From Antarcticimicrobium luteum (lineage in GTDB: Bacteria; Pseudomonadota; Alphaproteobacteria; Rhodobacterales; Rhodobacteraceae), in NCBI RefSeq assembly GCF_004358185.1, contig NZ_SMUV01000073.1:1-64000 (forward strand): a DNA stretch of 64,000 bases, read 5' to 3'. A program made the translations under genes and the position numbers. Positions 46,577 to 59,977 of the stretch are shown here, one piece after another; positions within the stretch are counted from its first letter, which is position 1; the number at the start of each line of letters is the position of its first letter. The notes below the pieces were generated by a model. It ran no database searches and was not told the origin of the DNA. It saw nothing but the letters and a program-made list of their open reading frames with translations.

Positions 46577-48274
46577 TCAGGCGCCCACGACCTTGACCGA
46601 ATTGTTGGGGGCGACCGTCACGGTGCCCTGCTTGCGGATGTGGTTTTCCACCACGTCCCAGATCTGCGGCCCTTCGGTGCCTTCGTTGACCGAGGCCCAG
46701 CCGGCGACGACATATGTCTTCGCCGGATCGATCATTTCGCCGGTCTTGAGCAGGGTCATCTCGGAAATCCGTTCGCCCTGCGGCTTGGAAATATCCATCC
46801 TGAAGCCCATGCCGCCGACGCGGACCATGTCGCCGCCCTGCTGGTAATAGGGATCGGGATTGAACAGGTTGTCACCGACATCCTCCAGCACCACCTTGAT
46901 GAACTCGCCGGTCATCTCGGTGCGATAGGCCTTGCCGTAGGTCATCGAGGTGACGTTGAAGATATCCTCGCGGGTGATGTCCTGGCCGGGCAGGATCGAC
47001 GGCCCCCAGCGCACACCGGGCGACATGGCGATATCCGCCTCGCGCTCGGCCAGCAGCGCGTCGCAGATCAGATCGTCCCAGGTGCCGTTGAAGTTGCCGC
47101 GGCGGTAGAGCAGGCTGTCGGTCTTGCCGATCACCTCTTCCAGCTCGGCCTTGAAGGGCGCGCGCTGCTCGTCGATCAGCCTGGTGATCACGGGATCGGG
47201 CGCGATCACGTCCGAGAAGATCGGGATCAGCTTGTGCCGCAGCCCCATCATCCGACCGTCGCGCACGTCAAGATCGACGCGGCTGACGAATTTGCCGTTG
47301 GAGCCGGACGCGATGATGAAGGTCTGGCCCACCTGCACCGGCTCGGGCAGCGCGTCATGGGTGTGGCCCGACAGGATCACGTCGATGCCCGAAACCACGC
47401 TTGCCATCTTCTTGTCGACGTCGAAACCGTTGTGGCTGAGCAGGACGACAACATCGGCGCCAGCGGCGCGGACCTCGTCCACCATCTCCTGCATGTGCTC
47501 GTCGCGGATGCCGAAGGAGTATTCCGGGAACATCCAGCCCGGGTTGGCGATCGGCATATAGGGGAAGGCCTGACCGATCACCGCCACCTTGGCGCCGCCG
47601 CGTTCGAAGAACTTGTAGGGCTTGAACAGCTCGGCCGGCTCGTCCCATTCGGCATCGAAGATGTTCTGGCCAAGGGCGGCGAAGGGCAGCCCTTCGACGA
47701 TCTCGTTCACCCGGTCGCTGCCCAGCGTGAACTCCCAGTGGAAGGTCATCGCGTCAGGCTTGAGTGCGTTCATCACGTTGACCATGTCCTGGCCGGCGGT
47801 CTTGTAGCAGGTCATCGAGCCATGCCAGGTGTCGCCGCCGTCCAGCAGCAGCGCGTCGGGGCGGTCGGCGCGGATCGCGTTGATCACGGTGGACACCCGG
47901 TCCAGCCCGCCGACGCGGCCATAGGTCCCGGCCAGCGAGGAGAAATCGTCATAGGTCAGCGCATAGGCCGAGGGCGAGCCGTCGGCGATGCCGTAGGCCT
48001 TGCGGAAATCGGCGCCGGTGATGTGCGGCACCTGCCCTTTGTTGGCGCCGACGCCCAGGTTGATCGAGGGCTCGCGGAAATAGATCGGTTTCAGCTGCGC
48101 ATGAATGTCGGTGACGTGGATCAGGCTGATATTGCCGAACGTATCGAATTGCAGCAGCTGGTCCTGGCTCAGCGATTGCTGCGCCGCCAGGCGCGCCCAG
48201 TTGCCAAACCCCGACGCCCCGACCAAAGACGAGGCCGCCATCGAAACCTGAAGAAAATCACGACGAGAAATCAT
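46577..48274 (-). CDS. soxB: SoxB, thiosulfohydrolase
   Basis: Protein of 565 residues with a Tat-like signal (MISRRDFLQVSMAASS) and a two-domain 5'-nucleotidase-like fold: metal ligands in HVTDIHAQ (Asp56, His58), LDGGDTWHGS, LLSHNGFD and ILSGHTHDALPE. It releases sulfate from SoxY-bound thiosulfate in a dimanganese site. It sits between soxA and soxC in the standard order. Confidence 0.97.
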   Translation of the reverse strand: MISRRDFLQVSMAASSLVGASGFGNWARLAAQQSLSQDQLLQFDTFGNISLIHVTDIHAQLKPIYFREPSINLGVGANKGQVPHITGADFRKAYGIADGSPSAYALTYDDFSSLAGTYGRVGGLDRVSTVINAIRADRPDALLLDGGDTWHGSMTCYKTAGQDMVNVMNALKPDAMTFHWEFTLGSDRVNEIVEGLPFAALGQNIFDAEWDEPAELFKPYKFFERGGAKVAVIGQAFPYMPIANPGWMFPEYSFGIRDEHMQEMVDEVRAAGADVVVLLSHNGFDVDKKMASVVSGIDVILSGHTHDALPEPVQVGQTFIIASGSNGKFVSRVDLDVRDGRMMGLRHKLIPIFSDVIAPDPVITRLIDEQRAPFKAELEEVIGKTDSLLYRRGNFNGTWDDLICDALLAEREADIAMSPGVRWGPSILPGQDITREDIFNVTSMTYGKAYRTEMTGEFIKVVLEDVGDNLFNPDPYYQQGGDMVRVGGMGFRMDISKPQGERISEMTLLKTGEMIDPAKTYVVAGWASVNEGTEGPQIWDVVENHIRKQGTVTVAPNNSVKVVGA

Positions 48275-48378
48275 GGAAAACAGCTTTCCGTTCCTGCGGC
48301 ACACACATTCGCATATGTGAATACCTATTGCGAAAACGACCCCGCGCTCCGGAATTCGAAGCGCGGGGTCGGGTTGAC

Positions 48379-50708: not shown

Positions 50709-50726
50709 AATTCACGATTGTGAATT
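50709..50726. promoter_or_regulatory. SoxR/SqrR-type operator in the soxW-soxX gap
   Basis: A 7-bp perfect dyad, AATTCAC-GATT-GTGAATT, contains ATTC-N8-GAAT, the sequence described for the ArsR-type sulfide regulator SqrR and related BigR/SoxR proteins. It is 93 bp upstream of soxX in the gap where SoxR binding has been shown in another alphaproteobacterium. Confidence 0.65.
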
Positions 50727-51431: not shown

Positions 51432-52169
51432 TCAGACGACGCTGGCAAAGCCCGGGATCCACCGGATCATCGCGTCGGCGATCAAATTCACGCCCCCCGT
51501 GGCGATCAGGATAGCAAAAACGATCAGCATTGCCCCCATGCCTTTTTCCACCCAGGCAAAGGCGGTGCGATGTCGCTGAACCCAGGCCAGAAAGGGCCGG
51601 GCGAAGAACGCCGCCACGATGAAGGGCGCCGTCATCCCGACGCCATAGACGAACAGCAGCAGCGCCCCGCGCCAAATATCGCCCATGCCGCTGGCGATCA
51701 TCAGGATCGACGCCAGCGCCGGACCGACGCAGGGCGTCCAGCCGAATCCAAAGGCCAGCCCCATCAGATAGGCGCCCAGGATCGTGCTGGCCTCGGCGCT
51801 GCTTTCCATCCGCGCCTCGCGATACAGCAGCGGCACCCGGATCACGCCGAGGAAATGCAGACCGAACACCAGCAGGATCGCCGCCGCAACATAGGCAAGC
51901 GTATCCAGGTATTGGCCGAACATGGAGCCGAGCGCGGTGGCGCCCATGCCCAGCAGCATGAAGATCGTGGTAACCCCCAGCGCAAAGAACACCGCCGAGG
52001 TGATCAGCCGCCTTTGGGCCCCCGGCGCAATCTCGCCGTCGCCGCGCAGTTCCGCCATGCTCAGCCCGCCCATGTAGGACAGATAGAAGGGGACCATCGG
52101 CAGGATGCAGGGCGTGAAAAAGCTCAGCAAACCGGCCGCCAAGGCGCCGAACAACGAAATTTCCAGCAT
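51432..52169 (-). CDS. soxV: SoxV, CcdA-type thiol-disulfide electron carrier
   Basis: Membrane protein of 245 residues with six hydrophobic helices and the two CcdA cysteines, Cys21 in TPCILPMVPF and Cys147 in TPCVGP. It moves reducing equivalents from cytoplasmic thioredoxin to SoxW and possibly SoxS. It is the first gene of soxVW, divergent from soxS across a 95-bp control region. Confidence 0.94.
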   Translation of the reverse strand: MLEISLFGALAAGLLSFFTPCILPMVPFYLSYMGGLSMAELRGDGEIAPGAQRRLITSAVFFALGVTTIFMLLGMGATALGSMFGQYLDTLAYVAAAILLVFGLHFLGVIRVPLLYREARMESSAEASTILGAYLMGLAFGFGWTPCVGPALASILMIASGMGDIWRGALLLFVYGVGMTAPFIVAAFFARPFLAWVQRHRTAFAWVEKGMGAMLIVFAILIATGGVNLIADAMIRWIPGFASVV

Positions 52170-52222
52170 TTAAACCCCTCCCAGGGCCTCAGCCGCCGCG
52201 TCAGACGGGCTTTGGCTTGATC

Positions 52223-52239
52223 TATTCAAATATTCAAAT
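52223..52239. promoter_or_regulatory. SoxR-type operator in the soxV-soxS gap
   Basis: Tandem ATTCAAAT repeats (52224-52231 and 52232-52239) form TATTCAAATATTC plus AAAT, a one-mismatch version of ATTC-N8-GAAT. It lies 26 bp before the soxS start and about 55 bp before soxV. The same 13-base sequence occurs upstream of dsrE at 59121-59133. Confidence 0.6.
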
Positions 52240-52264
52240 TATCTTGTGTAACGATTTAAGGTCA

Positions 52265-52657
52265 ATGGGTGGTTTGATGTTGCGCGACAAAGTTTTCGGG
52301 GGCCTGCTTGCCGTGCTGATGCTCGCCGCTCCCGCGCATGCCACCGATCTGGTGATGGTCGAGCAGACCGGCTGCGCCTGGTGCGCGCGCTGGAACGAAG
52401 AGATCGCGCCGGCCTACCCCAAGACCGACGAGGGTAAATTCGCGCCGCTGCGCCGGGTCGATCTGCGCAACATGCCGGACGATCTGGAAATTGCCCGCCG
52501 CGTCACTTTTACCCCCACCTTCCTGCTGGTCGAGGACAACCGCGAGATCGCCCGCATGGAGGGCTATCCGGGAGAGGATTTCTTCTGGCCGCTGCTCGAT
52601 CAGATGCTGACCCGATACACCGATTACGCCCCGGCCGGGACGGAGGGCAACGGGTAA
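52265..52657 (+). CDS. soxS: SoxS, periplasmic thiol-disulfide protein
   Basis: Protein of about 130 residues (ATG 52265 with AAGG upstream; ATG 52277 is an alternative) with a signal peptide (to about AHA) and a thioredoxin-like site QTGCAWCARW (Cys37, Cys40). The C-terminal part has FTPTFLLVEDNREIARMEGYPG. In Paracoccus SoxS reactivates SoxYZ by reducing its carrier cysteine. It leads the soxSRT unit here, unlike the soxRS order in Paracoccus. Confidence 0.88.
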   Translation: MGGLMLRDKVFGGLLAVLMLAAPAHATDLVMVEQTGCAWCARWNEEIAPAYPKTDEGKFAPLRRVDLRNMPDDLEIARRVTFTPTFLLVEDNREIARMEGYPGEDFFWPLLDQMLTRYTDYAPAGTEGNG

Positions 52658-52749: not shown

Positions 52750-53085
52750 ATGGCGCTCCCGCAATTCTCCACGGACATGTCCGAGGACGAACTGGACAAG
52801 ATGGTCGAAAACGCCACCGATGCGTCCAACTTCCTCAAGGCGATCAGCCACGAAGGCCGGATGATGATCCTGTGCCACCTTGTGACGGGCGAAAAATCGG
52901 TGACCGAGCTGGAAGAGCTGCTTGCGGCGCGTCAGGCTGCGGTGTCGCAGCAGCTGTCGCGGCTGCGGCTCGAGGGGCTGGTGGTGCCCCGGCGCGAGGG
53001 CAAGGCGATCTACTACCGGCTGGCGGATGACAAGCCGCGCCGCATCCTCGAGGTGGTCTACGACCTGTTCTGCGACGCCGACTAA
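52750..53085 (+). CDS. soxR: SoxR, ArsR-family sulfur-responsive repressor
   Basis: Protein of 111 residues with an ArsR winged HTH (KSVTELEELLAARQAAVSQQLSRLRLEG, residues ~49-76, written here as KSVTELEELLAARQ and AAVSQQLSRLRLEG) and cysteines at 42 (ILCHL) and 108 (LFCDAD). These positions match the redox pair of BigR/SqrR, which form a polysulfide bridge and release DNA. It should repress soxVW, soxXYZABCD and its own unit until thiosulfate or sulfane sulfur is present. Confidence 0.92.
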   Translation: MALPQFSTDMSEDELDKMVENATDASNFLKAISHEGRMMILCHLVTGEKSVTELEELLAARQAAVSQQLSRLRLEGLVVPRREGKAIYYRLADDKPRRILEVVYDLFCDAD

Positions 53086-57545: not shown

Positions 57546-57728
57546 CTACTCGCCGCCTATGGCACGGGCGACGGCGCGGGCGATGGGGAAGGCGGCGACG
57601 AACCCGACCGCCACGGCGGCGGCAAGCGCCCAAGCCCCGCCGAGTCCGGCGACCAGCAGAACGACGATACCGACGCCGGCGAGGGTGGCGCCGATGAACA
57701 GGTGCAGGATCAGGACGAGGTGGCTCAT
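57546..57728 (-). CDS. Small two-helix membrane protein
   Basis: Protein of 60 residues: two hydrophobic helices (about 4-27 and 31-55), opening with MSHLVLILHLFIGATLAG and ending in a basic/acidic tip. Similar small proteins occur across Rhodobacteraceae and are sometimes labelled CTP synthetase, which the sequence does not support. Function unknown. Confidence 0.65.
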   Translation of the reverse strand: MSHLVLILHLFIGATLAGVGIVVLLVAGLGGAWALAAAVAVGFVAAFPIARAVARAIGGE

Positions 57729-57781
57729 GCCCCGGCTTCTAGGCGGCGGGGGCCGGGCGCACCTTGATCTGCGTCAGCCCG

Positions 57782-57875
57782 GATCGGGGAGTTTTCCCGC
57801 TGTTTCGTACAGCCCGCCCGCCGCCGCGACATCCTGAAACAGGCCGATTGGGGAGATTTCGGGCGGTATCGTACA
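57782..57875. repeat. Imperfect 30-bp direct repeat pair
   Basis: Copies at 57782-57811 and 57846-57875 agree at 24 of 30 positions, both opening GATYGGGGAG and ending TCGTACA. They sit in the 245-bp gap between the small membrane protein and cytochrome b561. They may be operator sites or copies of an extragenic repeat. Confidence 0.45.
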
Positions 57876-57973
57876 AAGAGGGACGAACAGCCGATAGGCG
57901 GGGCAAAGACACCGGCGAGGGTGCCGCAGGGGTGACGAGGGGGCACCGGGAAACGGCGCGCGCCCCGATCCGC

Positions 57974-58456
57974 CTAGCCGGGTCGTTTCATCCGCGCCAT
58001 GATCCCGGTCTTGAGCACGAATTGCTGATAGAGCGCGCCGGCCACATGCAGCGCCACCAGCGCCAGCAGCAGCAGGCGCAGCAGCCCGTGCGCGCCGGCC
58101 GCCGGGCCGATGCCGCCGAACCAGGCCAGCGCGCCGGTCACCGGCATCAGCAGCATCAGACCGTAGAGGCCGAGGTGGGTGCCGTGGGCGACGCGTTTCA
58201 GCGCCGCCGGCTCCTCCTCGGGCAGCGGCGGGGTGCCGCGGGTCAGGCGCAGCGCGATGCGCCAGACCACCAGCGCCAGGATCAGCAGCCCGCCAAAGAC
58301 ATGGCCCGCGACCAGCGGCGAAAAGGCGATCTCGGCCCCCTCGCGCAGCCGGTCCCAGGCGGCGACGATGGGTTCGTGAAACAGGTATTGCAGCGCGATC
58401 AGCAGAAAGATGCCCCAGTGCAGGGCGATCTGGGCGCGGGTGTAATGGGTTTGCAT
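57974..58456 (-). CDS. Cytochrome b561
   Basis: Protein of 160 residues with four hydrophobic helices and histidines suited to ligate haem b: His13 (QIALHWGIFLL), His52 (VAGHVFGGLL), His94 and His137 (VALHVAGALYQ). It would exchange electrons with the quinone pool. It lies downstream of the dsrE-like gene on the same strand (155-bp gap), which hints at a link to sulfur electron transfer. Confidence 0.88.
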   Translation of the reverse strand: MQTHYTRAQIALHWGIFLLIALQYLFHEPIVAAWDRLREGAEIAFSPLVAGHVFGGLLILALVVWRIALRLTRGTPPLPEEEPAALKRVAHGTHLGLYGLMLLMPVTGALAWFGGIGPAAGAHGLLRLLLLALVALHVAGALYQQFVLKTGIMARMKRPG

Positions 58457-58610
58457 GGAATCCTCGGACCAATTCCGGTTGTCGAACCCAGATTACACGC
58501 CCGCGCGCGCGACGTCCGTCGAAAGATCCGGAGCAAAACGGACCGCGCCGCGAAAAAGAGAGCCGGAGCGCGTGGGGACGCCCCGGCCCGGACGGGATCA
58601 GCGGCAGGCC

Positions 58611-59054
58611 TCAGGGCCGGACGTAGGCAAACCCCTGCTCTTGCAGTTCGACCAGGCGGACCACGCCCGAGGGCACCATCCCCGCCTCCTCGAGCAGGGG
58701 AACCTCATGGCCCACCTTCTCGCTCATCTTGCGGTGGGTATTGCCGCAGGCGGAAAAGGACAGGTTGTCGATCTCGAGGCTCATGGCCGAGATGCGGTCG
58801 GCGACCGGGCTTTTTCCGACCACATACATGTTGAGGCCGGGACCATAGGCCACCACCTCGATCACCACATCGTCGCCCTGTTCCTTGTAGAACTGGGTGA
58901 CGTTGGCGACGTTGTTCAGTGTCATGTTCATCACCTGCGGGTCGTTCTGATCGACGTGGAACGCGATGTGATGGGTTTGCCCCTCGGCCCAGGCGGCGCC
59001 GGCGGCAGTGGTCACGCCGACCGCGAGTGCGGCGGCGGTCATCAGGTGTTTCAT
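58611..59054 (-). CDS. Periplasmic DsrE/F-like protein
   Basis: Protein of 147 residues with a signal peptide (1-23) and a DsrE-like fold: AFHVDQNDPQVMNMTLNNVAN, EVVAYGPGLNMYV, and a conserved cysteine in LSFSACGNTHRKM. The start at 59054 is supported by GGGAGGA. It may carry or bind sulfur in the periplasm. A 13-bp copy of the soxV-soxS operator element lies about 67 bp upstream. Confidence 0.82.
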   Translation of the reverse strand: MKHLMTAAALAVGVTTAAGAAWAEGQTHHIAFHVDQNDPQVMNMTLNNVANVTQFYKEQGDDVVIEVVAYGPGLNMYVVGKSPVADRISAMSLEIDNLSFSACGNTHRKMSEKVGHEVPLLEEAGMVPSGVVRLVELQEQGFAYVRP

Positions 59055-59120
59055 GCGGTTTCCTCCCTTATCGGTACTGGCGAGGATAGGACATAATGCC
59101 GCAATCGTATAGTCTGTTAC

Positions 59121-59133
59121 GAATATTTGAATA
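59121..59133 (-). promoter_or_regulatory. Copy of the sox operator element upstream of dsrE
   Basis: On the minus strand this reads TATTCAAATATTC, identical to 52223-52235 in the soxV-soxS gap. It lies 67-79 bp upstream of the dsrE-like start, in promoter position. SoxR is the likely binder. Confidence 0.5.
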
Positions 59134-59301
59134 TGGAGGGCGGGCGGCGGCATCGCAGGCGGCCGCGTCGCGGCAATCGGGTCGGCAACCGGGCGGTGCC
59201 GGCGATGGGCGGCGCGGCGCCGACGCGCCGGCTGACACCCCTTGCCGGACCCGGGGCGCGGGGCCTATATCCCACGGCAAGCGAGCAGATGGAGAGATGC
59301 G

Positions 59302-59439
59302 ATGACGCGGATGTTTGTTTTTGGCCTGGCGCTGCTGGCGCTGGCGGCCTGCGAGACCACCAAGGGCGCCGGGCGCGACCTGCGCAAGGCGGGCGATGCG
59401 ATCGAGAACGTGGCCGGGGACGTCCAGAAAAAGCTCTGA
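59302..59439 (+). CDS. Entericidin A/B-family small lipoprotein
   Basis: Protein of 45 residues with a lipoprotein signal ending in LAACE (lipobox Cys about residue 17) and the entericidin pattern ETTKGAGRDLRKAGDAIEN. A GGAGAG site precedes the ATG. Such small lipoproteins sit in the envelope and act in stress or toxin-antidote pairs. No partner seen. Confidence 0.82.
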   Translation: MTRMFVFGLALLALAACETTKGAGRDLRKAGDAIENVAGDVQKKL

Positions 59440-59467
59440 ACGCCCTCGCGGGCCCCTGCCCCGGGCC

Positions 59468-59977
59468 TTAGCGTTTCTTGACGAACTCGGTCAGGATGAC
59501 GATGCGCTGGCCCTCGACCCGGCCCTCGATATGGGCGGGGTTGTCCTGAACCAGCGAGATGCCGCGCACCGCCGTGCCGCGCTTGGCGGTGAAGCCGCCG
59601 CCTTTCACGGGAAGATCCTTGATCAGAACCACGGTGTCGCCCTGCGCCAGCGGGACGCCGTTGCTGTCCTTGTGCCCGGTCTCCTGCGGCACGTTCTCGG
59701 CCCAGGCGCGGGTGTCGTCATCGAGCCAGAGCTGATCGGCCAGATCGCGCGCCCAATCCTCATCCGACAGACGCTTGAGCATCCGCGCGGCCAGCACCTG
59801 GACCGCCGGCTCCTCGGACCACATCGAGGACGACAGGCAGCGCCAGTGGTTGGGATCGGGCTCCCCTTCGATCTGGGCGATGCAGGTCTCGCAAAGATCG
59901 ACGCTGGCATCCGCAGGCCCGCCGGTGACGGCATAGGCGGTGAGGGGCGCATCGGCGGAACAGAGGGCGCAGGGCAT
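59468..59977 (-). CDS. PhnA-like zinc-ribbon protein
   Basis: Protein of 169 residues. The N-terminal zinc ribbon has CALC and CETC pairs, and the C-terminal PhnA domain reads DSNGVPLAQGDTVVLIKDLPVKG, written here across residues ~105-127, followed by GTAVRGISLV. Despite the name, PhnA-type proteins have no proven phosphonate role. Start 59977 was chosen for the zinc-ribbon N-terminus. Confidence 0.85.
   Translation of the reverse strand: MPCALCSADAPLTAYAVTGGPADASVDLCETCIAQIEGEPDPNHWRCLSSSMWSEEPAVQVLAARMLKRLSDEDWARDLADQLWLDDDTRAWAENVPQETGHKDSNGVPLAQGDTVVLIKDLPVKGGGFTAKRGTAVRGISLVQDNPAHIEGRVEGQRIVILTEFVKKR

Follow-up and report, generated by a model that had tools for sequence, protein, structure and literature searches.

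A predicted SoxR operator upstream of a dsrE-like gene outside the sox operon of Antarcticimicrobium luteum

The window, by which we mean the whole 64,000-nucleotide stretch of Antarcticimicrobium luteum DNA analysed here, carries a sox cluster for sulfur oxidation with its repressor gene soxR and, standing apart from it, a dsrE-like gene followed by a gene for a cytochrome b561. The features on which the argument depends are the following:

46577-48304, minus strand: soxB, over the TIGR04486 cut-off, with a likely start near 48274 (by eye)
48307-48322, minus strand: ATTCACATATGCGAAT, an exact match to the SqrR-type pattern, between soxA and soxB
50710-50725, minus strand: ATTCACAATCGTGAAT, an exact match to the SqrR-type pattern, between soxW and soxX
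51432-52169, minus strand: soxV, DsbD/CcdA-like, first gene of the soxVWXYZABCD run
52223-52239, plus strand: predicted operator TATTCAAATATTCAAAT of the soxV-soxS gap, filling the 17-bp spacer of the proposed soxS promoter
52277-52657, plus strand: soxS, thioredoxin-like, below the Pfam cut-off and named from its position
52750-53085, plus strand: soxR, ArsR-family repressor with Cys42 and Cys108
57974-58456, minus strand: cytochrome b561 gene (PF01292)
58560-58589, minus strand: terminator-like hairpin of 12 pairs with a T-rich tail, between dsrE and the b561 gene
58611-59054, minus strand: dsrE-like gene (147 aa), with a signal-peptide-like start (by eye), DsrE fold and invariant Cys103
59083-59112, minus strand: proposed dsrE promoter, deduced from conservation, made up of CTATAC (59112-59107), an 18-bp spacer and TATCCT (59088-59083)
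59121-59133, minus strand: TATTCAAATATTC, a 13-mer resembling an operator, in the promoter region of dsrE, with a 16-bp form ATTCAAATATTCGTAA at 59132-59117

A scan of the window located the 13-mer TATTCAAATATTC exactly at 52223-52235 on the plus strand and, inverted, at 59121-59133, the copies being 6.9 kb apart, just as an earlier sequence-only reading of this DNA had described. That reading also placed the element 67 bp upstream of the dsrE-like gene, which is indeed the distance from its inner edge to the start at 59054; this start was chosen because of a GGGAGG at 59067-59062 and the signal-peptide-like beginning of the protein, both recognised by eye, although the first ATG of the open frame, at 59153, precedes the element. 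Across the whole genome (4,663,068 bases in 74 contigs) the 13-mer was found at these two places only, even with one mismatch allowed, and the reversed control pattern gave no match. With up to two mismatches the window holds five matches, against a mean of 0.12 and a largest count of 1 in shuffles. Exact copies of a looser 12-mer, ATTCAMAYATTC, are limited genome-wide to the same two places, and changing one base of it gave 14 further places (reversed control, 1), which on rough frame maps appear by eye to be mostly scatter, although one falls within the soxA-soxB site and another within the site upstream of a soxH-like gene. A one-mismatch copy, ATTCGCATATTC, lies directly upstream of a gene for a ZnuA-like metal-binding protein (by eye; C7:117814-117825, L121), and a metal regulator may own that site.

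In the soxV-soxS gap the element lies within the spacer, 17 bp long, that separates TTGATC (52217-52222) from TATCTT (52240-52245); by eye these two hexamers form the proposed promoter toward soxS. A position between two promoter hexamers is a usual one for a repressor site. Related gaps mostly follow the same plan of CTTGA, a few bases, ATTCACATATTCA-AT and then a TATCTT-like stretch, and the exact 12-mer is present in 9 of the 15 such gaps examined in other genomes. Within the family ATTCAMAYATTC was found in 118 of 198 genomes, at more than 150 places. The 150 that were listed comprise 36 at the gap position, 3.5-4.2 kb upstream of soxB (one per genome, the window's included), 3 upstream of dsrE as judged from the 50 dsrE matches with E<=1e-20, and 111 at neither. 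The reversed 12-mer gave 21 places, counted from the rows of the family listing.

The SoxR protein has 6o8l/6o8k (named ArsR family) as its closest solved relatives, with E of about 6e-35 and with Cys42 and Cys108 both aligned to cysteines. Both cysteines and the stretch RQAAVSQQL-RLR, which we take to be the recognition helix, are common to SoxR and 6o8l, this stretch being nearly identical; the entries 6o8k-6o8o are, we assume, SqrR of Rhodobacter capsulatus. Against the BigR equivalog NF040642 the score is 96.9 bits, under the 155-bit cut-off. The accessible text of PMC9774250 quotes ATTC-N8-GAAT as the R. capsulatus SqrR site. The dsrE site reads ATTC-N8-GTAA and so departs from this exact consensus (GTAA for GAAT), while the SqrR-type pattern ATTCAMA-N5-GAAT has four exact places in the genome (reversed control, 0), among them the sites in the soxW-soxX and soxA-soxB gaps and one on a separate contig:

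C13:110303-110318 (L135): exact site ATTCACACATGCGAAT, ~43 bp upstream of a soxH-like gene (pattern match)

Unlinked to sox, this gene encodes an exported protein of metallo-beta-lactamase fold that is 64-68% identical to proteins near sox genes in seven loci with dsrE inside the sox operon, and whose best matches, although under the cut-offs, are SoxH-related families; the name soxH-like was given because of these two resemblances. Judged from its site, it is probably another dispersed SoxR target. In all, the genome holds six exact operator-type sites, five of which are at soxV/S, soxX, soxB, dsrE (itself counted) and the unlinked soxH-like gene. An exact ATTC-N8-GAAT also occurs upstream of a gene for a TRAP-type DctP solute-binding protein (C14:53438-53453, L136).

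As a single sequence the window DsrE reaches 16.2 bits against PF02635, below the gathering cut-off of 22.7, and with E up to 5 allowed all 23 aligned DsrE members match this family (best 1.1e-6). Its structure model (pLDDT 91.7) matches the fold of 1l1s (MTH1491) with Z 18.1 (111 residues, 1.6 A), and that of 2hy5 (DsrEFH) with Z 13.4. Cys103 is invariant in alignments of 23 and of 31 rows.

Of 410 relatives the best 80 supply the dsrE loci named in this work, a selection that leans to close kin. Among these best 80 of 410, dsrE comes directly after soxB in 14, in 13 of which the next gene is soxC, the contig ending at this point in the other (L113); in four more (L034, L037, L042 and L089) a sox cluster begins within 10 kb of dsrE. 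Homologues at E<=1e-3 were found in 65 of the 198 family genomes, and soxB is over its cut-off in 47 of the 50 genomes with dsrE (E<=1e-20) versus 80 of the 148 without (Fisher 5e-8); one of the three dsrE genomes lacking a soxB match, G069, has a piece of soxB at a contig start. Outside sox the neighbours are mixed (by eye aldo/keto reductase-like, metG-like and lepA-like) and tell nothing about function. The placing of dsrE, in the sequence-only reading, outside what is normally regarded as Sox fits the layout of this genome, but sits less well with the 14 of 80 loci in which it follows soxB, a position already in print for two Sulfitobacter strains. With the element in front of its gene here and in some relatives, the little-studied DsrE is probably a regulated, overlooked partner of the Sox pathway. 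Close relatives also occur on contigs labelled Gammaproteobacteria, Litoricola, Candidatus Puniceispirillum and unplaced alphaproteobacterium (L098, L103, L104 and L105), which suggests transfer or mis-binned contigs.

Recurrence of the element upstream of dsrE orthologues, for which the sequence-only reading had proposed a motif search, was found in a minority of loci and well above controls. The matrix was built from the soxV-soxS gaps of nine genomes other than the window's, chosen from the 15 examined; the six left out (L039, L047, L062, L071, L083 and L112) have deviating sites. It was applied to the upstream regions of 66 standalone dsrE genes, the 14 of 80 loci with dsrE inside the sox operon being set aside. 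A score of 13 or more was reached in 13 of the 66, against a mean of 0.53 and at most 3 in 30 rounds of dinucleotide shuffling. Among 6531 control tiles 15 scored this high, four of which lie at sox promoters, and the enrichment at dsrE has a Fisher p of ~1e-19. Ten of the 13 matches lie at -74 to -78 relative to dsrE. Nine come from genomes outside the matrix set and four (L034, L037, L042 and L089) from genomes whose own gap trained it. The remaining 53 regions score below 13, and since three of them (L058, L075 and L087) carry ATTC-N8-GAAT, about 50 of the 66 have no recognisable site; ATTC-N8-GAAT itself precedes standalone dsrE in these 3 of 66 loci versus 10 of 6531 control tiles. For the matches at L051, L057, L077 and L086 no sox gene was found at E up to 1e-6 within the 20 kb examined; the site can therefore persist at dsrE away from sox. 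By eye, GTTC-N7-GTTC repeats stand upstream of standalone dsrE in L048, L060, L081, L085, L096 and L101; these resemble what we take to be alphaproteobacterial LexA boxes and perhaps belong to a neighbouring SOS gene.

The 13 matches are carried by related genomes, amounting to about nine lineages when read from a weakly resolved dsrE tree of 81 rows. On this tree the sox-operon rows and the operator-bearing rows each need seven changes, at least two of which, for each class, are forced by well supported branches, and these multiple changes suggest repeated moves of dsrE. Fourteen upstream regions, the window included, align without gaps as cATTCAcAtATTCgtAA, 4 bases, CTATnC, 18 bases and a TATCCT-like stretch, L077 deviating in the last part. 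These rows were hand-picked for having the site (L041, scoring 12.3, was included and L111, with an opposite-strand match, excluded), so that the ATTC columns are conserved by choice. The dsrE promoter was assigned from conservation only, because a simple sigma-70 scan of 57700-59500 found no promoter, and its layout is unlike that of soxS.

We consider it likely, on this sequence evidence, that the element is an operator of SoxR, a sulfane-sulfur-sensing repressor of the ArsR family, and that dsrE is under SoxR control together with sox. The link between SoxR and dsrE is well supported by three findings that point the same way: the element is unique in the genome, it is enriched in front of dsrE orthologues, and dsrE is tied to sox genes. 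The analysis itself shows that the two copies of the element are identical, unique in the genome and conserved in part, and that DsrE is linked to sox and has the DsrE fold; to this the following scheme adds binding, release and a role for DsrE by analogy with related proteins. When reduced sulfur is lacking, a SoxR dimer would occupy the soxV-soxS gap, the regions upstream of soxX and soxB, and the dsrE promoter. Thiosulfate or sulfide would lead to a polysulfide bridge between Cys42 and Cys108 and to the release of SoxR, whereupon dsrE would be transcribed together with sox, and the exported DsrE would probably handle sulfane sulfur on the invariant Cys103, near SoxYZ.

A chance match of A/T-rich promoter DNA, with no shared regulation behind the two copies, might be argued from the absence of the site in most standalone dsrE upstream regions and from the predominance of other locations among the listed family places of the 12-mer (111 of 150 listed). 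Such a coincidence is hard to reconcile with an element unique genome-wide, with its near-fixed distance to dsrE in several lineages and with the enrichment at dsrE over control tiles and dinucleotide shuffles; we regard it as extremely improbable and have rejected it on the grounds of uniqueness and matrix enrichment. The site may instead be real but bound by a second SoxR/SqrR-like protein, alone or jointly with SoxR, much as some targets in Hyphomicrobium are common to sHdrR and SoxR. A candidate is encoded at C14:86225-86509 (L115), 63% identical to SoxR over 95 residues, with both cysteines kept and a recognition stretch, RQAAVSQMLARLR, nearly the same as in SoxR, and the accessible part of PMC12423496 describes fragments to which SoxR and sHdrR both bind. 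This gene, however, adjoins an enolase-family-like gene (by eye) and not sulfur genes, and the sole other exact copy of the element adjoins soxS-soxR, which makes this assignment rather improbable.

The sequence-only reading went further in proposing a SoxR-controlled module of DsrE and b561. It was right that a cytochrome b561 gene follows dsrE, as the PF01292 match at 57974-58456 attests, and the dsrE half of the module is well supported by uniqueness, enrichment and the sox tie; the b561 half is weak. That the two genes form one SoxR-controlled transcript, moving electrons or sulfur between the periplasm and the quinone pool, seems unlikely to us: although b561 starts only 154 bp downstream of dsrE, the terminator-like hairpin lies between them, and among the best 80 of 410 the genes adjoin in only four loci besides the window (L034, L042, L044 and L063), b561 being downstream in two and upstream in two. 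A weak b561 match (31%) lies 1.8 kb from dsrE in L070, and the neighbour search could miss divergent b561 genes. Even the other Antarcticimicrobium loci, L034 and L037, differ, A. sediminis (L037:10655-11782) having a gene for an SQR-like pyridine nucleotide-disulfide oxidoreductase, convergent to dsrE, in place of b561. A conserved dsrE-b561 pair was rejected on account of this rarity and this difference within the genus. A literature search on SqrR with b561 found no paper, and we make no claim for b561 as a member of the SoxR regulon, a membership that is weakly supported.

If SoxR does control dsrE, the sequence evidence carries the SoxR regulon past the sox operon in one of the major marine families, and a periplasmic DsrE protein is indicated as a partner of Sox. 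Sox-linked genes scattered over a genome could also be traced by means of the operator pattern, the soxH-like gene being one candidate already. More tentatively, DsrE could be an unrecognised carrier of sulfane sulfur in the periplasm, serving the complete Sox cycle of Rhodobacterales, acting between SoxB and SoxCD on SoxYZ-bound sulfur and keeping its membership of the SoxR regulon either by its position in the operon or, when elsewhere, by an operator of its own, as might the soxH-like gene. Our literature search, with most subscription papers beyond reach, found no report of a SoxR site or SoxR control at dsrE outside a sox or shdr island, and this silence is weak evidence that such a site at a standalone dsrE is new.

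In Paracoccus pantotrophus and Pseudaminobacter salicylatoxidans SoxR reportedly binds the soxS-soxV and soxW-soxX gaps. The window resembles these systems in having an ArsR repressor gene beside soxS and sites in both gaps, and differs in its extra sites at soxB, at dsrE 6.9 kb away and at the soxH-like gene on another contig. The SoxR operators of both sox clusters are named and cited in the accessible part of PMC10451225, which also describes SoxR of Hyphomicrobium denitrificans as binding promoters outside sox, one of them upstream of dsrE3C, and polysulfide as stopping the binding; of five probes from the shdr-sox island of this organism four are bound by SoxR, among them that lying upstream of dsrE3C (PMC10451225 and PMC12423496, as far as accessible). 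SoxR control of a DsrE-family gene therefore has a precedent, and in Hyphomicrobium, too, SoxR appears from these sources to reach beyond the sox operons, whereas dsrE3C, a gene of the cytoplasmic sHdr route, is located within that island, and the window DsrE is predicted to be exported and is encoded apart from the sox operon.

SqrR of R. capsulatus is the nearest solved sequence to SoxR (E 6e-35) and has both cysteines; the sites at dsrE and in the soxV-soxS gap are unlike the SqrR site in forming a direct repeat, ATTC-N4-ATTC, with a degenerate second half-site. MTH1491 (1l1s) and DsrEFH (2hy5) have the DsrE fold in common with the window protein, which differs in its predicted export and in falling, as a single sequence, below the Pfam DsrE cut-off. 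A close parallel in gene order is 'orf2' of the DsrE family, flanked by soxB and soxC in Sulfitobacter noctilucicola and S. undariae and called of unknown function in the accessible passage of PMC11034169, which is silent on regulation. The same soxB-dsrE-soxC order is seen in 13 of the best 80 of 410 loci, whereas the window dsrE stands apart with a predicted operator of its own.
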